Shown piece by piece: positions 3,713 through 12,308 of a stretch of DNA of 64,000 bases; the first letter of the stretch is position 1, and the number at the start of each line of letters is the position of its first letter. Position numbers and translations under genes: made by a program. Origin of the DNA: Stakelama pacifica (GTDB taxonomy: Bacteria; Pseudomonadota; Alphaproteobacteria; Sphingomonadales; Sphingomonadaceae); NCBI RefSeq assembly GCF_004361835.1, contig NZ_SNWD01000003.1:248001-312000 (forward strand), read 5' to 3'. The notes below the pieces were generated by a model. The model ran no database searches. It saw nothing but the letters and a program-made list of their open reading frames with translations, and had not been told where the DNA came from.

Positions 3713-4528
3713 TCAGAAATCCTGTCGGTTCTTCGCGAAATTCGCAAGGGGCGCATAATATTCGCGCGTTAAACCGGCCCGGCTACGCGCTGAGTCGTTG
3801 AACGGAGGCTTAACGATCCCGCGGAAATAGCGCGCGACAAGCATTCGCCACTCGGTTTCGGGCATGATTCGATCCGATTCGCAGGAAAATTCGAACCATT
3901 TTGTTCCAAATCCGACATGCCGAATTTCGTCGGTATAGATACGCTGCAAAATGCGTGCGCTTGGCTCGTCGCCGCTGCCTTGCATTCGCTCGACCGTCTC
4001 CGGCGTAACGTCCAGCCCCCTCGCCTCCAACACCATCGGCACCACGGCAAGGCGGGCGCGCGCATCATGCGCAGTGCCATTCGCCGCTTCCCAAAGCCCC
4101 GCATGCGCCGGCAGCGCGCCGTACCAGCTGCCCAGCGCCCTCAGCCGCCGGTCGAGCAGCGCGAAATGCATCGCTTCGTCAGCGCCGACCGACAGCCAGT
4201 CATCGGTAAATTCGCGCGGAAACTGCCTGCCGAACCGCCCGACCATATCAAAAGCGAGGTCGATGGCGACAAATTCGATATGCGCCAGCGCGTGGAGCAG
4301 CGCGATCCTCGAGCGTTCGGATCCCGCCCGACCGCGCCTTGGCATGCGGTTGGGTGGCAGCAGTTCGGGATGCTCGGGACGACCCGGCTCGTCCGGCATC
4401 GCGACGCCGAAATCATGCGACAGCCTGCCTCGCCGCCACTCGCGCACCGCCGCCCGCGCCGCCTTCACCTTGGCATAGGGGTCGGCGTGGAGCAGCACGT
4501 CACGGCAAGCGGCGGCAACGGGGGTCAC
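3713..4528 (-). CDS. DUF455 family ferritin-like protein
   Basis: A 271-residue helical protein recognised as DUF455. Putative metal-binding helices with Glu/Asp-His pairs are visible: HIEFVAIDLAFD, DEAMHFALL and DEIRHVGFG, the arrangement expected of a ferritin-like di-iron four-helix bundle. The biological role of the family is not established as far as I know. It starts with GTG at 4528, overlapping the bcp stop by four bases (GTGA), so it is translated with the peroxiredoxin. That pairing is compatible with an oxidative-stress or metal-linked role, but this is inference only. Confidence 0.85.
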   Translation of the reverse strand: MTPVAAACRDVLLHADPYAKVKAARAAVREWRRGRLSHDFGVAMPDEPGRPEHPELLPPNRMPRRGRAGSERSRIALLHALAHIEFVAIDLAFDMVGRFGRQFPREFTDDWLSVGADEAMHFALLDRRLRALGSWYGALPAHAGLWEAANGTAHDARARLAVVPMVLEARGLDVTPETVERMQGSGDEPSARILQRIYTDEIRHVGFGTKWFEFSCESDRIMPETEWRMLVARYFRGIVKPPFNDSARSRAGLTREYYAPLANFAKNRQDF

Positions 4529-4998
4529 GCGGGTTCGAGCGCCTTTACCGCTTCGAGCACCTTTTCGGCATGGCCGGGCACGCGCACCTTGCGCCAGATC
4601 TGCGCGAGCTTGCCGTCCGCGTCGAACAAAAAGGTCGAACGATCGATGCCCATATATTTGCGGCCGTACATATTCTTTTCGACCCAGGCGCCGAACGCTT
4701 CGAGCACCGTGCCGTCGGGATCGCTGGCAAGCGGTACGGTGAGGTCATATTTGTCGATGAACTTGCGATGCTTTTCCGGGCTGTCTTTGGATACGCCGAG
4801 GATTTGCGCGCCTGCCCCCTGAAACGCTTCCAGCATCGCGCTGAAATCCTGCGCCTCGCGCGTGCAGCCGGACGTGTCATCCTTGGGATAGAAATACAGG
4901 ATGAACGGCTTGCCCGCATATTCCGATAGCCGGATCGTACCGCCGTCCGTCGACTGAAGCTCCAGATCGGGCAGCGTATCGCCTTCGCTGATCGTCAT
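4525..4998 (-). CDS. bcp: thioredoxin-dependent thiol peroxidase, Bcp/PrxQ type
   Basis: A 157-residue peroxiredoxin, almost exactly the length of E. coli Bcp. The peroxidatic cysteine is C45 in DDTSGCTREAQDF. The position five residues later is Gln, not Cys, so this is a PrxQ variant without the helix-2 resolving cysteine and probably works by a one-cysteine mechanism. Two ATGs lie six bases apart; the second (4998) is seven bases from an AGGAG site, while the first (5004) is only one base from it but overlaps the glnE stop as ATGA. It should reduce lipid and hydrogen peroxides in the cytoplasm. Sits between glnE and the DUF455 gene in one leftward operon. Confidence 0.9.
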   Translation of the reverse strand: MTISEGDTLPDLELQSTDGGTIRLSEYAGKPFILYFYPKDDTSGCTREAQDFSAMLEAFQGAGAQILGVSKDSPEKHRKFIDKYDLTVPLASDPDGTVLEAFGAWVEKNMYGRKYMGIDRSTFLFDADGKLAQIWRKVRVPGHAEKVLEAVKALEPA

Positions 4999-5000
4999 CG

Positions 5001-7670
5001 TCATTCTCCTTTTGTCGGCCGGATCAGGCCCTCCCAGCAATCGCGCACCTCCTGACGCGTCGTGTCGAACGAGGCAAGCATCGCGTTCCAGCTTTCGGCA
5101 CGCACCGCGCGTGCCACCAGCGCGCGGCTCGCCTCAGCCGGCGGCTGTCCGTCGGGCGCGACGAGGCGCAGCGTCACCAGCAGCCGCGTGAGGAAATCAT
5201 GCGCCGAGGCAAGCGCGGGCGGAAGCAGCCCTGCCTCGATCAGCCCGGCAATCGCCCGGCCGAGATCGGTGGAAAAACCGCTTCGGTGGCAAAGCTGCTG
5301 CACATGCACCGCGAATTCGAGATCGACCAGTCCGCCGGGGAGCAGCTTTGCGTCGAGCGGACCGAGCGGCGGCTTATGGGCTGCCATTTCCTCGCGCATC
5401 CGCGCTGCCTCCGCGGCGATCGGCCTTTCCGGCCGGGCGCCCTGCAGCACTGCGTCGATCGCTTGGGTAACTGCGCCGCGCGCTGCGTCCGACCCGAAGA
5501 CCGGTCGCGCACGGGTCAGCGCCATATGCTCCCAGGTCCAGGCGTCCTCGCGCTGATAGCGGGCGAACCCGGCGAGCGAGACCGAGATCGGCCCCTGCGC
5601 GCCCGACGGACGAAGCCGCGTATCGACCTCATAAAGCGGTCCGGCAGCGGTCGCGACCGACAGCGCGCCAATGATCCGCTGGGCAAGGCGATTATAATAC
5701 ATCACCGCGCCCAATGGCTTGGCACCGCCCGATTCCGCCGAATGTTCGCCGGTGAACAAAAAGATGAGGTCGAGATCGGAGGCATGGGTGAGCGCACCGC
5801 CCCCGAGCCGACCCAGCGCGAGGATCACCAGCTCGCTGCCCGGCACCGTGCCATGGACCTGCGCAAACTGCGCGATGGTCGCGCGTGCGATGACCTCGAT
5901 CGCCGCTTCCGCCACCCGCGCATAGCCCGCCGATACGGCGAGCGGATCGCTCGCCCCTGCGATGATCTGCGCACCGAGGGCGAAACGCTTCTCCCCGACG
6001 ACGCGGCGGACATGATCGAGCAACGCTTCATAATCGCCGCTACGGTCGCGCGGGGTCATATCGGTGATCAGCGCGGGCACCTCCCCCACCGGGTCGAGCG
6101 CGCTGGCATCGATCAGCCCGTCGAGCAGCGACACACGAAGCCCCAGCGCATCGGCAAGCGTCGGGGCATGGCTAAGGATCGCGCTGAGCAGCGCAGCAAG
6201 CGACGGCTGTGCTTCGAGCAGGCGGAAGAAATTGATCGCGCTGGGCAGCCCGGTAAGTAATTTGTCGAGGCGGAGCAGCGCCGCATGCGGATCGGCGGAG
6301 GCGGCGAGCGCATCGACCAGTCCGGGTAGCGCGGCCTCCATCGCCTCCTTGGCCGCCGCCGTGCGCAGCGCGCGATAGGAATTGCCGCGCCATTTGTCGA
6401 TCAGCCGGACCGCGCCTTCGCCATCGGCAAAGCCGGCCGCCTCCAGCCGCTCGCGCAGCCTTTCCGGATCGGCGGGAAGCGCATTGTCGCCCTCCCCTTC
6501 GAGCGCGTCATAGCGTTTGGAGACCATGGCGACATGCGGACGCAGCAGATCGAGCAGCGCTTCGCCGCTTTCCAGCCCGTGCAGGGCAGCGACATTGGCC
6601 AGCGCTTCGGGCTTTTCGGGCAGAAGATGCGTCTGCCGATCGTCGATCATCTGCACGCGATGCTCGATCGTGCGCAGCAGGCGGTACGCATCGGACAGCA
6701 TGGATGCATCCTCCTGCCCGATCCAACCCGCTTCGGCCAGCGCAGCAAGCGCATCCATCGTGGCGGGAGCTCTCAGCGCGACGTCCCGTCCGCCGTGGAT
6801 CAGCTGATGCACCTGCGCGAAAAATTCGACTTCGCGAATCCCGCCGCGCCCGCGCTTCAGGTCGAAGCCGGGGCCGAATTGCTGCACATCGTCATAATGA
6901 TCGCGAATCCGGCTGCTGATCGAGCGGATTTCGCCGATGGTGCCGAAATCGAGCGAACGCCGCCAGACAAAGGGCTGGATCGCATCGATGAAATGCTCGC
7001 CCAGCGCAATATCGCCCGCCGTAGCGCGGGCGCGGATGAACGCAGCACGCTCCCATGGCAGCGCCTGCGATTCATAATAAGAGATTGCGGCGCCTACCGG
7101 CAGCGCCGGCGGCGTCGCCTCGGGCGAGGGCCGCAGCCGAAGATCGACGCGCAGCACATAGCCATCACCGTCGCGCGCCTGCAAAAGCTCCACCACACGC
7201 CGCGCGATCCGCGCCGCGCCATCCTCGACCGACTCGTTCGACCGATGCGGCAGCGTCGCCGGATCGTAGAGAAATATGGGATCGATATCGGAGGAATAAT
7301 TGAGCTCGCGGCTGCCCTGCTTACCGAGCGCAATCGCGACAAAACCGCGCGGTTCGGCATCGGGGACGCGCTCTGCAATAGCGGTACGGATCGCGACATC
7401 CAACGCCCGGTCGGCGAACCCGGTCAGCAGCCCGGTGACTCGCTCCAGCGAATAGCGAGCGGACAGATCGCCGATCGCAGTGACGAGTGCCAGACGACGC
7501 CGGGATATGCGCAGGCGTCGCGCCGGCGGCATTTCAGGGTCATCGACCCAGCTTCGCGCGATCGGATCATTCAGCGCCGCTTCGATATCCAAAACGAAAT
7601 CCGGTTCGCGATTGATAATCATCGAAAGAAACGGTGAATGGCGAACCGCCCGATCGAATATCGCCTGCAT
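5001..7670 (-). CDS. glnE: bifunctional glutamine synthetase adenylyltransferase/deadenylase
   Basis: About 889 residues. GlnE attaches AMP to glutamine synthetase when nitrogen is plentiful and removes it under nitrogen limitation, controlled by PII proteins. Two nucleotidyltransferase cores are visible: the N-terminal deadenylase half with GSRELNYSSDIDPIFLYD and the C-terminal adenylylase half with GGGALTHASDLDLIFLF, each with the metal-binding DxD pair. Both halves keep their catalytic residues. Start 7670 (MQAIFDRAV) has GGTGGAGG immediately upstream; an ATG at 7715 would add 15 residues and is an alternative. The gene is divergent from nepR, and bcp follows with an overlapping start. Confidence 0.92.
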   Translation of the reverse strand: MQAIFDRAVRHSPFLSMIINREPDFVLDIEAALNDPIARSWVDDPEMPPARRLRISRRRLALVTAIGDLSARYSLERVTGLLTGFADRALDVAIRTAIAERVPDAEPRGFVAIALGKQGSRELNYSSDIDPIFLYDPATLPHRSNESVEDGAARIARRVVELLQARDGDGYVLRVDLRLRPSPEATPPALPVGAAISYYESQALPWERAAFIRARATAGDIALGEHFIDAIQPFVWRRSLDFGTIGEIRSISSRIRDHYDDVQQFGPGFDLKRGRGGIREVEFFAQVHQLIHGGRDVALRAPATMDALAALAEAGWIGQEDASMLSDAYRLLRTIEHRVQMIDDRQTHLLPEKPEALANVAALHGLESGEALLDLLRPHVAMVSKRYDALEGEGDNALPADPERLRERLEAAGFADGEGAVRLIDKWRGNSYRALRTAAAKEAMEAALPGLVDALAASADPHAALLRLDKLLTGLPSAINFFRLLEAQPSLAALLSAILSHAPTLADALGLRVSLLDGLIDASALDPVGEVPALITDMTPRDRSGDYEALLDHVRRVVGEKRFALGAQIIAGASDPLAVSAGYARVAEAAIEVIARATIAQFAQVHGTVPGSELVILALGRLGGGALTHASDLDLIFLFTGEHSAESGGAKPLGAVMYYNRLAQRIIGALSVATAAGPLYEVDTRLRPSGAQGPISVSLAGFARYQREDAWTWEHMALTRARPVFGSDAARGAVTQAIDAVLQGARPERPIAAEAARMREEMAAHKPPLGPLDAKLLPGGLVDLEFAVHVQQLCHRSGFSTDLGRAIAGLIEAGLLPPALASAHDFLTRLLVTLRLVAPDGQPPAEASRALVARAVRAESWNAMLASFDTTRQEVRDCWEGLIRPTKGE

Positions 7671-7762: not shown

Positions 7763-7954
7763 ATGATGCCGCACAATCATTCTTCAGGCGAAAGCAGTTC
7801 TTCAACGCCGGTTACGGTTGAAGTGCCCCGCGTCTATGACGGCTTGGGCGCTGCACTGAAAAAAGCCTATGGGCGCGATGCCGGTCTGCCCGATGACATG
7901 CTTCGTGCGCTTGACCGGCTTGATCGTGTCGAGCGCCGGGGCAAAAGCCACTAA
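7763..7954 (+). CDS. nepR: NepR-family anti-sigma factor, first copy
   Basis: A 63-residue protein with the NepR core: a helix LGAALKKAYG, then LPDDMLRALDRLDRVE, matching the two-helix pattern (LR..Y followed by vPd.f..LL..L) of NepR proteins. NepR binds and inhibits the EcfG sigma factor until phosphorylated PhyR displaces it. Starts at ATG 7763, divergent from glnE. It faces ecfG tail to tail with only 22 bases between stop codons, whereas nepR and ecfG usually form one operon. I find no EcfG-type promoter in front of it. A second NepR-like gene lies at 9952. Confidence 0.78.
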   Translation: MMPHNHSSGESSSSTPVTVEVPRVYDGLGAALKKAYGRDAGLPDDMLRALDRLDRVERRGKSH

Positions 7955-7976: not shown

Positions 7977-8612
7977 TCACCGGTCGCGGCTGAGATGATC
8001 CACTTCGCCCATGATCGATTCGAGCGCACTGGAATTTTCGACAGCGCCTTCCGAACGCGGAGCGAGCTGCCCTTCGCTCAGAATATTTTCGAGCGCCACC
8101 CGGCCACGCGCAACGCGGCTCTTGATCGTACCCACCGCAACGTTGCAGATCTCCGCTGCTTCTTCATAAGCGAAACCGCCCGCGCCCACCAGGATCAGCG
8201 CCTCGCGCTGCGGCTGCGGCAGGTGCAGCAGCGCGCGCTGCATATCGGCGAGCTCCACATGCCGGTCCTGACTTGCCGGTGCGGCAAGCAGTCGGTCAGC
8301 GACGAGATCGTCCCACTCGCCCTTGAACCGGGCGCGGCGCATTTGCGACAGATAGAGATTGCGCAAAATGATGAAGGTCCAGGCACGCATATTGGTGCCC
8401 GCCTGAAACCGCTTGCGCGCGGCCCAGGCTTTCATCAGCGTTTCCTGCACCAGATCGTCGGCCACATCGCGACTACCCGACAGCGAACGGCCAAAAGCGC
8501 GCAGATGCGGGATCACCTGCGCCAGCTGATCTTTGAATTCATTATCGGGCAGCGAGACATGCTCGTTCTCACCGGATTTTTCCGGCGCACCCTGTTCGTT
8601 CGATACCGTCAT
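7977..8612 (-). CDS. ecfG: EcfG-type general stress sigma factor
   Basis: A 211-residue group ECF15-like sigma factor. Region 2 spans about residues 28-95 (HLRAFGRSL, DLVQETLMKAW, WTFIILRNLYL), which melts and recognises the -10 element. Region 4 spans about 125-175 (LPQPQREALILV, GTIKSRVARGR), the helix-turn-helix for the -35 element GGAAC. It directs the alphaproteobacterial general stress response and is held by NepR. ATG 8612 is preferred to an in-frame GTG three bases upstream. Co-directional with the microprotein gene at 8725 and phyR. No EcfG box was found directly in front of it. Confidence 0.9.
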   Translation of the reverse strand: MTVSNEQGAPEKSGENEHVSLPDNEFKDQLAQVIPHLRAFGRSLSGSRDVADDLVQETLMKAWAARKRFQAGTNMRAWTFIILRNLYLSQMRRARFKGEWDDLVADRLLAAPASQDRHVELADMQRALLHLPQPQREALILVGAGGFAYEEAAEICNVAVGTIKSRVARGRVALENILSEGQLAPRSEGAVENSSALESIMGEVDHLSRDR

Positions 8613-8724
8613 CACATCTCATTCAGAACAAAGGACAATTCAGCCGGGCCGAGCAACCGGTCTCCACACATAGGCGCAGGGGAACGCGAATGCCAGAGCA
8701 GCAGCCGGGCCGATATGGAGCGGA

Positions 8725-8911: not shown

Positions 8912-9712
8912 TCAACCTTCCGCCGGAACGGTGGTCTGATCGAAAAAGAGCGCCTGACTGATGGCCGCTTTGACCGTCGAACGCTGGAACGGTTTGGTGA
9001 TGAGAAAGGTCGGCTCGGGCCGCTCACCGGTGAGCAGTCGCTCGGGGAACGCGGTGATGAAGATCACAGGAACATTGAACTCTTCCAGAATGTCCTTCAC
9101 CGCGTCGATGCCCGAACTGTCATCGGCAAGCTGGATATCGGCCAGCACCAGACCGGGGCGATCCTCCATGGCAAGCGCGACGGCCTCGTCGCGGGTAACG
9201 GCGACGCCGGTCACATCATGACCAAGATCGCGAACGATGGTTTCGATGTCCATCGCGATGATGGGCTCGTCCTCGATGATGAGGACTTTGGACCGGGTCT
9301 GTTTCTCGATTTCTTCCAGCGCCTCGCTGACCAGCCGGTCGACCTCTTCGGGAGTGGTATCGATCAGATAGGCGGTATCCTCTACCGTGAAACCTTCCAT
9401 TGCCGTCAGCAGCAGCGCCTGACGCGATACCGGAGCGATCCGGGCGAGACGCGCACGTGCGATTGCTTCACCGCCCGAGGATTGCTCACGCGCCTCCCAG
9501 TCGTCGGGATGGGTCGAGGACCAGATGCCCTGAAACATGCGATACAGGCCGAGACGCGGATCAACATCCTTCGGAAATTCTTCGGGCGCCGCCACGATCG
9601 CCTCCAGCGCGGCGCGAACATAGCGGTCACCTTCCTGCTGGCTGCCCGTGAGGGCCCGGCCATAGCGCCGCAGAAAGGGAAGGTGCGGTGCAAGCTGCTG
9701 TCCTAGCGACAT
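8912..9712 (-). CDS. phyR: PhyR, sigma-like domain plus receiver, general stress response regulator
   Basis: A 266-residue anti-anti-sigma response regulator. Residues about 1-135 form the EcfG-like domain (LPFLRRYGRALTG, RLGLYRMFQGIW, EGFTVEDTAYL) that mimics the sigma factor and captures NepR. Residues about 141-260 form a receiver with the acidic pocket IEDEP, phosphoacceptor D192 in ADIQLAD, TAFPERLLTG in place of the ordinary T-loop, and K240 in ITKPF. Phosphorylation opens the protein so that it binds NepR and releases EcfG. It is the first gene of a leftward unit phyR, microprotein, ecfG and is divergent from the second nepR and phyP. The 239-base intergenic region carries an EcfG-type box directed toward nepR. 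Confidence 0.95.
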   Translation of the reverse strand: MSLGQQLAPHLPFLRRYGRALTGSQQEGDRYVRAALEAIVAAPEEFPKDVDPRLGLYRMFQGIWSSTHPDDWEAREQSSGGEAIARARLARIAPVSRQALLLTAMEGFTVEDTAYLIDTTPEEVDRLVSEALEEIEKQTRSKVLIIEDEPIIAMDIETIVRDLGHDVTGVAVTRDEAVALAMEDRPGLVLADIQLADDSSGIDAVKDILEEFNVPVIFITAFPERLLTGERPEPTFLITKPFQRSTVKAAISQALFFDQTTVPAEG

Positions 9713-9823: not shown

Positions 9824-9849
9824 GGAACCAACGAAAGTCTATTTGGTTT
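9824..9849 (+). promoter_or_regulatory. candidate EcfG-dependent promoter for the second nepR and phyP
   Basis: GGAAC at 9824-9828 is followed after 17 bases by GTTT at 9846-9849. The consensus for EcfG promoters is GGAAC, 16-17 bases, CGTT, so the -35 is perfect and the -10 lacks the leading C. It points toward the ATG at 9952, leaving a leader of roughly 95 bases. Feedback induction of nepR by EcfG is known in other alphaproteobacteria. Confidence 0.6.
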
Positions 9850-9951
9850 CATACCGATCAAATGACGGGGTAAAGCGCCCTGTACTGCGTAGCCGGTGTC
9901 TTGACGTATCCGCGTTTTCCGGCGAATTGCGGCCGAATTTTTGAGGGGAAA

Positions 9952-10137
9952 ATGGTGCGATCCGACGCCGATCGACAGCAGGAAGACAAGGCAGTGCCGA
10001 AGGAAGACAAGTCGCCGGCTCCGGGAAAGAAGGGGTCCGACGGCGATGTCGGCAACGCGTTGCGCGCGGTATATCGCGAGGCAATTGACGAAGATGTGCC
10101 GGACGAGATGCTCGACCTTCTGAAAAAACTCGGCTGA
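9952..10137 (+). CDS. nepR: NepR-family anti-sigma factor, second copy
   Basis: A 61-residue protein. A charged, probably disordered N-terminus of about 30 residues is followed by the NepR core VGNALRAVYREAIDEDVPDEMLDLLKKLG, which fits the family consensus better than the copy at 7763. Start ATG 9952 follows GAGGGG. Only 12 bases separate its stop from the phyP-like gene, so the two form an operon, preceded by a GGAAC-type promoter. It probably inhibits EcfG and is captured by PhyR. Which of the two copies is the main inhibitor cannot be told from sequence. Confidence 0.82.
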   Translation: MVRSDADRQQEDKAVPKEDKSPAPGKKGSDGDVGNALRAVYREAIDEDVPDEMLDLLKKLG

Positions 10138-10149
10138 CCTTGTGATGCG

Positions 10150-11733
10150 ATGACCGATTCAGAAGGACAGCGCGAAACGGCTGACAGGTCGGCCTTCGCG
10201 CTGGCCCGATTGCCCACCGGGGCAAAGGTTTTTCTCATTCTGAGCGGCGCCCTGTTGCCACTCGCCCTGATTGCCTTTTTCGCGACGCTGCAAACCACGC
10301 GGGTCGCCGATCTGGAGGCGCGCGCCCGACTGAGGGTCGCCGCTGCAGAGGGATCGCGATCGCTCGCCAATGAACTTGTCGGCGATATGACCGCGCTTCG
10401 CGTCGCCCTTAACGCACTCGAACGCGATCCCGGGAACCGGCCCGGCTGCGCCCGTGTTCAGGGCGTATTCGCGCAGCAATTCGCCGCCGGAACCAAATTC
10501 GCCGTCTATGGTCCCGATCAGCGGCTGCTGTGCGGCGACGAAATGACCTATCCGGTGCCCGAACCCGATCCCGGTGATCGGTTCAATGCAGAGATCATTG
10601 CCGGCAAGGGACTGCTTCTATCGGTGCGCAGCGATCAGTCGCCGGCGCATGCTGTGGCATTTTTCCCGACCGATTTCCTTTCCCGCGTCGCCCGGCCCTC
10701 CGGGTTCGTTCCGCCCTATGCTGCTTCGCTGACGCGCGACGATACGCATCTTACGCTTGAAACGCTTGCTTCGCGGGGGCCGCTCGACCGGCGCGAGGAG
10801 ATAGAGACCCCGCTCGGCCTGGACGGAATCAGTCTCGATATGTCGGTGCGCGCTGCGCCGATCACGTCGCCGCTGCTGGTATCCATGCTGCTGCCGCTGA
10901 TCATGTGGGCAGCGGCGGCTGGGATAGGCTGGTTCGTGGTCGACCGGCTGCTCATCCGCCCGCTGCGCCGCCTGCGCCGCAATGTCGGCGAATATAAGCC
11001 CGGCGAAGTGATCGACCCCGTACCGATCAGCCACATGCCCGCGCAGGAGATTCGCGAGCTCGGCGATACGTTTGTCGAGATCAGCAAGACGGTGCGCGCA
11101 CATGAAGCCGATCTTGCCGAAGGGCTGGTACGCCAGACGCGTCTGACGCGCGAAGTCCATCACCGGGTGAAGAATAATCTTCAGGTCATCGCCAGCCTGA
11201 TCAATTTCCACGCACGCAGCGCGCATGGCGAGGAAGCGGGGCAGGCCTATGCCTCGATCCAGCGCCGTGTCGACGCACTCGCCGTGGTGCATCGCTATCA
11301 TTATGCGGAGATGGAAGAAAATCGCGGGCTGGAACTGCGCTCGGTGCTCGGGGAACTTGCGTCCAACATTCGTGCGACCGCGCCGCCGGCATCGTCGGGT
11401 CTGCGCATCATGCTCGATCTCGACCCGTTTCTGGTGTCGCAGGACACCGCGGTCGCGGTCGCGTTTCTGCTCACCGAGCTGGTCGAGCTGGCGATGAAAT
11501 GTTCGCCGACGGCCGCGATCAACATCTCGCTGAAACCCGCCGAAAAGACGCAATGCGCAATTCTTCGGCTGAGCTCGCTCGCGCTGATCCAAAGCGATCG
11601 CTTCGACCTGCTCACGGAGCAGCGTTATGGCCGGATCATTCTCGGCCTTGCCCGTCAATTGCGTGCCCAGCTGCACCATGATCCGCTGGCCGGCGCGTAT
11701 GAAATCAGCATTCCGGTGCTGGGAATCGCGTAG
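10150..11733 (+). CDS. phyP: PhyP-like HWE/HisKA_2 histidine kinase relative with degenerate ATP-binding domain
   Basis: A 527-residue inner-membrane protein. Helices lie at about residues 24-46 and 240-265, with a periplasmic region of about 190 residues between them. A HAMP-like linker (IRPLRRLRRNV onward) and a HisKA_2 dimerisation domain follow, with phospho-acceptor candidate H338 in VHHRVKNNLQ. The C-terminal ATPase fold is eroded: the expected N-box (NELvtNAlKH) reads TELVELAMKC, and no DxGxG or G-rich lid motif is visible. It should bind ATP poorly and may act as a PhyR phosphatase. In Sphingomonas strain Fr1 a kinase-family protein in this locus, PhyP, is described as a negative regulator of PhyR. 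Located in an operon with the second nepR. Confidence 0.8.
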   Translation: MTDSEGQRETADRSAFALARLPTGAKVFLILSGALLPLALIAFFATLQTTRVADLEARARLRVAAAEGSRSLANELVGDMTALRVALNALERDPGNRPGCARVQGVFAQQFAAGTKFAVYGPDQRLLCGDEMTYPVPEPDPGDRFNAEIIAGKGLLLSVRSDQSPAHAVAFFPTDFLSRVARPSGFVPPYAASLTRDDTHLTLETLASRGPLDRREEIETPLGLDGISLDMSVRAAPITSPLLVSMLLPLIMWAAAAGIGWFVVDRLLIRPLRRLRRNVGEYKPGEVIDPVPISHMPAQEIRELGDTFVEISKTVRAHEADLAEGLVRQTRLTREVHHRVKNNLQVIASLINFHARSAHGEEAGQAYASIQRRVDALAVVHRYHYAEMEENRGLELRSVLGELASNIRATAPPASSGLRIMLDLDPFLVSQDTAVAVAFLLTELVELAMKCSPTAAINISLKPAEKTQCAILRLSSLALIQSDRFDLLTEQRYGRIILGLARQLRAQLHHDPLAGAYEISIPVLGIA

Positions 11734-11777: not shown

Positions 11778-11802
11778 GGAACCACCATCGCCCGATCACG
11801 TT
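11778..11802 (+). promoter_or_regulatory. perfect EcfG-type promoter in front of a predicted small RNA
   Basis: GGAAC at 11778-11782, a 16-base spacer, then CGTT at 11799-11802. This matches the alphaproteobacterial general stress promoter consensus exactly. It lies 45 bases after the phyP stop codon, directed away from it, and there is no protein gene within 300 bases downstream. Transcription would begin near 11808-11812, at the foot of a hairpin. Confidence 0.75.
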
Positions 11803-11808
11803 CTACAC

Positions 11809-11910
11809 TTCGGATAGCGACCTTTTGCCCCCCCGCTCTCGCTATCCAAGACATGGGCCCGGAAGCATCAACCCCCTCCCCCCCCCCGGTGGTGCTTCCG
11901 GGCCTAAATT
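11809..11910 (+). ncRNA. predicted stress-induced small RNA with two cytosine-rich hairpin loops
   Basis: No known RNA family is claimed. After the EcfG-type promoter come two strong hairpins. Hairpin 1 has a perfect 9-pair stem, 11812-11820 with 11839-11847 (GGATAGCGA/TCGCTATCC), and an 18-base loop with seven consecutive C (11828-11834). Hairpin 2 has a 15-pair stem with one G-U, 11856-11870 with 11890-11904, and a 19-base loop with runs of five and ten C split by one T. The linker is eight bases. Such C-rich loops can pair with G-rich ribosome binding sites, as in other alphaproteobacterial small RNAs. The 3' end is uncertain, because no clear U tract follows. Alternatively hairpin 2 may act as a terminator for phyP. 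Confidence 0.55.
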
Positions 11911-11949
11911 ATATCAGCCCTTCCTGCTCCGCGCTGTCATTGCCGATAC

Positions 11950-11974
11950 GGAACGTTTCGCGCTTTGGGGCATT
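11950..11974 (+). promoter_or_regulatory. weak EcfG-like promoter candidate upstream of the entericidin-like gene
   Basis: GGAAC at 11950-11954, 16 bases, then CATT at 11971-11974, one mismatch from CGTT. It is about 145 bases before the start of the small lipoprotein gene at 12119. The long leader and imperfect -10 make this uncertain. Confidence 0.3.
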
Positions 11975-12118: not shown

Positions 12119-12256
12119 ATGCGTAAGAAGTTTCTGACCGTTGCCGCACTTGCCGGCGTTATGCTGGTTTCGGCCTGCAATACGGTCGAAGGCGTTGGCC
12201 GTGACGTATCGTCGGCGGGCGATACAGTGGCGAAAACGGCCGACGACGCGAAATAA
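12119..12256 (+). CDS. entericidin A/B-family small lipoprotein
   Basis: Forty-five residues starting MRKKFLTVAALAGVMLVSACNTVEGVG. A lipobox (VSAC) ends the signal peptide, leaving a mature lipoprotein of about 26 residues with the entericidin pattern CNTVEGVGRDVSSAGD and TAD.A near the end. GGAG lies six bases before the ATG, the stop is doubled (TAATAA), and a strong terminator follows. Entericidins are small membrane-anchored peptides linked in E. coli to stationary phase and lysis control; the role here is unknown. Its position beside the stress locus and after GGAAC boxes suggests stress-linked expression, which is inference. Confidence 0.85.
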   Translation: MRKKFLTVAALAGVMLVSACNTVEGVGRDVSSAGDTVAKTADDAK

Positions 12257-12280
12257 TAATTCCCCCTTGATCACGCTTCA

Positions 12281-12308
12281 GGCCGCGAGGAAACTCGCGG
12301 CCTTTTTT
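12281..12308 (+). terminator. rho-independent terminator after the entericidin-like gene
   Basis: A perfect 9-base-pair stem GGCCGCGAG/CTCGCGGCC with a GAAA loop, followed by six T (12303-12308). It sits 24 bases after the lipoprotein stop and also separates it from the convergent tatC. Confidence 0.92.

Follow-up and report, generated by a model that had tools for sequence, protein, structure and literature searches.

We analyzed a window of 64,000 nucleotides of Stakelama pacifica DNA, in which the genes of the general stress response (GSR) lie in the order ecfG and phyR on the minus strand and nepR and phyP/phyT on the plus strand, followed by a predicted small RNA (sRNA) gene, an entericidin-like lipoprotein gene, and tatC. 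The features of this locus are as follows.

7977 to 8615, minus strand: ecfG, general-stress sigma factor (Pfam Sigma70_r2 and r4_2)
8912 to 9712, minus strand: phyR (Pfam PhyR_sigma2, PhyR_sigma-like, and Response_reg)
9824 to 9848, plus strand: EcfG-like promoter before nepR, GGAACCAACGAAAGTCTATTTGGTT (motif)
9901 to 10137, plus strand: nepR, anti-sigma factor (Pfam NepR, E 1.1e-8)
10150 to 11733, plus strand: phyP/phyT, membrane HisKA_2/HWE kinase-like regulator directly upstream of the RNA (Pfam HisKA_2, E 2.3e-18)
11778 to 11802, plus strand: EcfG-type promoter GGAAC-N16-CGTT of the RNA gene (motif; kept in 75 of 75 family loci)
11808 to 11917, plus strand: predicted sRNA, about 100 to 110 nt (fold z -7.1; covariance models R1/R2)
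11812 to 11847, plus strand: hairpin 1, 9-bp stem, loop C7 at 11828 to 11834 (8 of 9 pairs with compensatory changes)
11855 to 11905, plus strand: hairpin 2, 15- to 17-bp stem, C5-T-C10 loop, terminator-like (13 of 15 pairs with compensatory changes)
11950 to 11974, plus strand: separate EcfG-like promoter GGAAC-N16-CATT of the entericidin-like gene (motif)
12119 to 12256, plus strand: entericidin-like small lipoprotein (Pfam Entericidin PF08085, E 8.5e-7)

The entericidin-like open reading frame (ORF) is listed from 12104, with ATG at 12119 as its likely start. Beside ecfG, a small ORF at 7763 to 7954 on the plus strand looks NepR2-like by position and by eye and has no Pfam match. The promoter before nepR closely resembles the one published for nepR (#1444) in Sphingomonas melonis Fr1.

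The exact EcfG promoter that the sequence-only reading had placed before the hairpins is present as described, with GGAAC at 11778 to 11782, a 16-base spacer, and CGTT at 11799 to 11802. GGAAC-N17-GTT alone occurred 4 times in the window, compared with about 1 expected by chance, while the promoter combined with a C6 run 15 to 45 bases downstream was found exactly once in the 4-Mb genome, and the reversed control pattern 0 times. In an alignment of 30 same-genus relatives, GGAAC was invariant, and nearly all had CGTT or TGTT as the -10 element; the spacer, random in sequence, was 16 bases long in all 28 measured. The covariance model described below starts just after the -10 element and does not include the promoter. 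GGAAC-N16/17-NGTT ended at about the model start in 75 of 75 distinct loci (69 with N16 and 6 with N17), compared with 10 of 14,270 random positions in the same loci for the N16 form. The S. melonis Fr1 regulon study gives a regulon-derived EcfG motif of GGAAC-N17-20-GTT, which is the same spacing, as the base before GTT is counted inside N there (PMC6599016). We infer transcription, and its dependence on EcfG, from this promoter.

The RNA would start 6 to 8 bases past the -10 element and end just after hairpin 2. This 110-nt segment (11808 to 11917) folds with -49.3 kcal/mol (z = -7.1), and 0 of 200 shuffled sequences were as stable, bearing out the two strong hairpins with C7 and C5-T-C10 loops that had been proposed. 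In hairpin 1, GGATAGCGA (11812 to 11820) pairs with TCGCTATCC (11839 to 11847). Hairpin 2 has a 15-bp stem, formed by 11856 to 11870 with 11890 to 11904, and its loop consists of C5 (11872 to 11876), T, and C10 (11878 to 11887). Since G runs of at least 6 are rare in the genome (366 kb contains 56, counting both strands), the C runs of the RNA stand out. Hairpin 2 has a strong conserved stem, with a U tail that is variable among relatives and weak in this strain; the tail is AT-rich and weakly U-rich, and among the relatives the tails are 43% T, with a T run of at least 3 in 47 of 61 sequences. A simple terminator scan did not call hairpin 2 of this strain. Because of the weak tail, read-through to the terminator at 12280 to 12303 is possible.

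We then considered how far the RNA is conserved. BLASTN with the 161-base segment gave matches, usually a single one per genome, in 35 of 36 same-genus relatives and in 0 of 24 genomes of other families. A MAFFT alignment of 28 sequences made without use of the structure (A1) had standard pairs in 97.2% of pair cells, with 8 pairs changed on both sides; the GGATAGCGA/TCGCTATCC stem is replaced in other species by GGATCGCGA/TCGCGATCC, GGACCGCGA/TCGCGGTCC, or GGACGGCGA/TCGCCGTCC. The sequence-only reading had named confinement of the stems to this strain as a refuting outcome and had proposed a covariance search of the two hairpins against sphingomonad genomes. With a model built from 28 same-genus sequences, that search gave matches in 116 of 299 genomes and 42 of 96 genera of the family, and the stems are thus kept well outside this strain. 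Covariance models R1/R2 match along the whole length of the RNA in about 40 genera, and the carriers named are Sphingomonas, Sphingosinicella, Stakelama, Hephaestia, Parasphingopyxis, Sphingorhabdus, and Pacificimonas.

In an alignment of 61 diverse sequences (A3), compensatory double changes were found in 21 of 24 pairs, a count that leans towards the model to which the alignment was fitted; the unfitted A1 alignment agrees with A3 on covariation. The A3 covariation score was 0.409, compared with 0.159 for shuffles and at most 0.080 for slid structures. Among these 61 sequences, 99.1% of cells were paired in hairpin 1 and 95.4% in hairpin 2, and the C run of loop 1 was at least 6 long in all 61. 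Wobble cells contained 63 G-U and 8 A-C; because G-U far exceeds A-C, the plus strand is the folded RNA. The 61 sequences have no conserved ORF in the RNA, as C-run lengths shift the frame, and we rejected coding potential on this ground, in agreement with the earlier statement that this is not a protein gene. Judged from structure, strand, promoter, locus, and family-wide conservation, all read from sequence, the segment is a real structured RNA gene that is unannotated and strongly conserved in Sphingomonas and many relatives.

The covariance model understates the range of the RNA, because five distant, low-scoring loci (L110, L111, L113, L114, and L123) have other stems and keep the GSR or ecnA/tatC neighborhood, a GGAAC-type promoter, and C-rich loops; three of the five were folded, and both hairpins were seen in L110 and L111. 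The loops thus stay C-rich even where the stems differ completely, and they are among the most constant parts of the RNA while the stems drift, which looks like a recognition loop on a structural support.

Several matches at the edges of this distribution were rejected. Among 385 genomes of the class, the model had one match beyond the order (G642/L108, around 4001 to 4105), which is without an EcfG promoter and without GSR neighbors. That match, from a distant alphaproteobacterial family, resembles the two-hairpin RNA, with C-rich loops and a score of 38 bits. Two weak matches, L076 and L079, were not counted as members, as they lack an EcfG promoter and are located downstream of ahpC-like genes. 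Their C-loop hairpins (around 4950 to 5090) stand directly behind the ahpC-like peroxiredoxin gene (protein end DLVGKI) and are possible C-loop terminators or 3'-derived sRNAs. A pattern match in Acidovorax (L173) was put down to chance, as it had no covariance model match.

GsrN of Caulobacter crescentus binds a G tract in the katG leader with its C-rich 5' loop and raises KatG (PMC5869019). GsrN proper is also marked by an endonucleolytic 5' isoform and by a full-length form that Hfq stabilizes. GsrN-like RNAs have been predicted in Caulobacteraceae and Rhizobiales by promoter, position, and intergenic transcription, with the C-rich 5' loop as a shared feature, and there was no apparent gsrN-like gene in Erythrobacter litoralis, the Sphingomonadales outgroup of that study (Tien et al. 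2018, PMC5869019). Set side by side from the published description, GsrN and the predicted S. pacifica RNA are alike in design: both are about 100 nt long, have a promoter of the general-stress ECF sigma factor, expose in their 5' half a loop rich in C (six C in GsrN and at least six here), carry a 3' terminator-like hairpin, and usually adjoin the GSR locus. The S. pacifica RNA differs in that its 3' hairpin also carries a C-rich loop and in that the katG leader of its own genome is without the G tract that GsrN uses. The model matched no Caulobacteraceae GsrN in the 385 class genomes, a set that may or may not include Caulobacteraceae. An EcfG/SigT-type promoter directly upstream, proximity to ecfG-nepR-phyR, and an exposed 5' C loop are features of the GsrN-like class found here, and the parallel with GsrN drawn by the sequence-only reading was apt. 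The predicted design matches this class; what appears to be new is a sphingomonad member with an extra C loop in the 3' hairpin.

The binding loop of RepG lies in its terminator hairpin, and the loop of hairpin 2 might likewise serve as a binding loop. RepG is an sRNA of Helicobacter pylori that regulates via homopolymeric G repeats (PMC8295292), and it differs from the present RNA in its unrelated lineage and different regulation. PmaR of Agrobacterium tumefaciens has a similar, accessible C-rich loop for target recognition and mostly activates its targets (PMC6234868), but it is a single long stem under other expression control. The alphaproteobacterial sRNA ar7 (Rfam RF02342) has a stem with a CCCCCUC-type loop, as this RNA has; membership was rejected at 16.4 bits (E 0.34), compared with a gathering score of 60. 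This subthreshold match was the only one in the Rfam search, which gave no family for the RNA, in keeping with its not having been recognized earlier. We found no EcfG-dependent sRNA of sphingomonads in the open-licence literature.

Prediction of targets from the C-run loops, also proposed earlier, gave no convincing conserved target. A partial scan of contig C3, using 290 crude gene models, did not show complementary G tracts to be clearly overrepresented at gene starts; sites complementary to loop 1 were not enriched there, and the enrichment for loop 2 was slight and unconvincing. G6 tracts were present in 2 of the 290 crude leaders. The rarity of such tracts in the genome and in leaders points to few strong targets, or to shorter contacts of G4-G5. 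None of the individual candidates proved to be conserved. The leader of this strain's own katG has no G6 tract, and katG was rejected; the katG leaders of other genomes, located by crude start calls, were likewise without a G tract. The clearest own-genome leader match to AGCGGGGGG, pdxH, was rejected as well, since the G6 tract is present only in a minority of 19 same-genus leaders, and autoregulation of the GSR genes or entericidin was set aside because their leaders have no conserved G tracts.

Invariant C runs and the lack of a conserved target leader are what one would expect if the RNA is real and EcfG induced, with C loops whose partner is a protein, or another RNA that they sequester, rather than G-rich mRNA leaders. 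We consider this unlikely, given that the C-loop precedents GsrN (PMC5869019), PmaR (PMC6234868), and RepG (PMC8295292) act by pairing and that the target scan covered just one contig and a few genes.

The neighborhood of the RNA is also conserved. We inspected 35 strong loci drawn from diverse genera: 32 have the entericidin-like gene, tatC, or both just 3' of the RNA, and 25 have phyP upstream on the same strand. With the entericidin gene following on the same strand in most loci, and with the weak terminator tail of hairpin 2 in this strain, the hairpins could be an EcfG-controlled 5' leader or attenuator of that gene rather than a free-standing sRNA. We judge this improbable, because that gene is preceded, past hairpin 2, by an EcfG-like promoter of its own, which is kept downstream of the RNA in many relatives, and because the RNA is kept in five loci where no entericidin gene was detected downstream (L084, L089, L090, L097, and L100). 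Diverged second copies of the RNA, each with an EcfG promoter, also occur outside the GSR locus in two genomes (L078, around 5001 to 5104, and L109, around 4001 to 4118), which further argues against a leader; the L078 copy has kept loop 1 and lost most of the hairpin 2 C run. It is very improbable that the hairpins belong to the phyP mRNA, as a structured 3' untranslated region or a processed 3' end that mainly terminates or stabilizes the transcript: hairpin 2 is terminator-like and follows phyP on the same strand, but in 75 of 75 loci the hairpins come after a dedicated EcfG promoter at a strictly fixed position, and the RNA persists where phyP was not detected adjoining it (L065, L069, L071, L073, L074, L096, and L097).

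The locus can be compared with that of S. melonis Fr1, where nepR is #1444, phyR #1445, ecfG #1447, and nepR2 #1448, and where #1442, a "predicted small secreted protein," is strongly EcfG dependent (log2 -4.7) and is preceded at a distance of 30 bases by GGAACGAATGGCCCGACCGATCATT (PMC6599016), a motif of the same type as the promoter at 11950 to 11974. The ecfG product of our strain is 85.7% identical to EcfG of an S. melonis-type locus. In one relative (G906), the exact GGAACGAATGGCCCGACCGATCATT motif lies 30 bases before an entericidin-like ORF, and the exact published #1444 and #1446 motifs are found in the corresponding part of the locus. This relative has the RNA gene, preceded by an EcfG promoter of its own, between phyT and the #1442 counterpart. 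Gene order suggests that phyT is #1443 of S. melonis Fr1. The main text of the regulon study makes no mention of noncoding or intergenic RNAs (PMC6599016).

Taken together, conservation, covariation, promoter, and synteny strongly support the main point of the earlier proposal, an EcfG-controlled small structured RNA encoded next to phyP, with its expression side as a prediction. The best reading is a GsrN-like, EcfG-dependent, trans-acting sRNA that would be new for Sphingomonadaceae. Stress activates PhyR, which frees EcfG from NepR. Once this switch is on, EcfG RNA polymerase would transcribe the RNA, as its promoter implies, and a cytosine run would be exposed on both the 5' hairpin and the 3' terminator-like hairpin. 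If the RNA works as GsrN does, the C loops may initiate base pairing with G tracts in the leaders of target mRNAs, and pairing would change the translation or stability of those mRNAs. Such pairing may cover G-rich ribosome binding sites, as the sequence-only reading had suggested, or may activate its targets, like GsrN acting on katG. We infer pairing with mRNA G tracts because the C loops are constant and because GsrN uses its C-rich 5' loop on katG. Hfq, which is encoded in the genome, probably takes part in the pairing. The Hfq gene (G000:C1:345496-345927, L344 region, minus strand) has two Hfq (PF17209) domains in a 210-amino-acid frame, i.e., a tandem Hfq.

We thus consider it likely that the segment encodes a noncoding RNA of about 100 nt that is transcribed by EcfG and whose C loops pair with G tracts of mRNAs, and the RNA probably binds and regulates mRNAs during stress. 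More doubtful is a broader role as a family-wide sphingomonad stress master sRNA of GsrN-independent origin, in which both C loops would act together on mRNAs and a strain lacking the RNA would show much of the survival defect of an ecfG mutant.

To our knowledge, the sRNA arm of the alphaproteobacterial general stress response is known mainly from GsrN, and the RNA described here would supply a conserved counterpart across many sphingomonad genera. It sits in the very locus of the best-studied sphingomonad GSR network, that of S. melonis Fr1, whose proteins have been dissected one by one. The prediction is open to immediate testing, because RNA-seq of the S. melonis wild type and ecfG mutant under several stresses is public (ENA PRJEB30300; PMC6599016). 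With strict C loops over freely changing stems, the RNA would also offer a clean system for studying how C-loop sRNAs choose their targets in GC-rich genomes.
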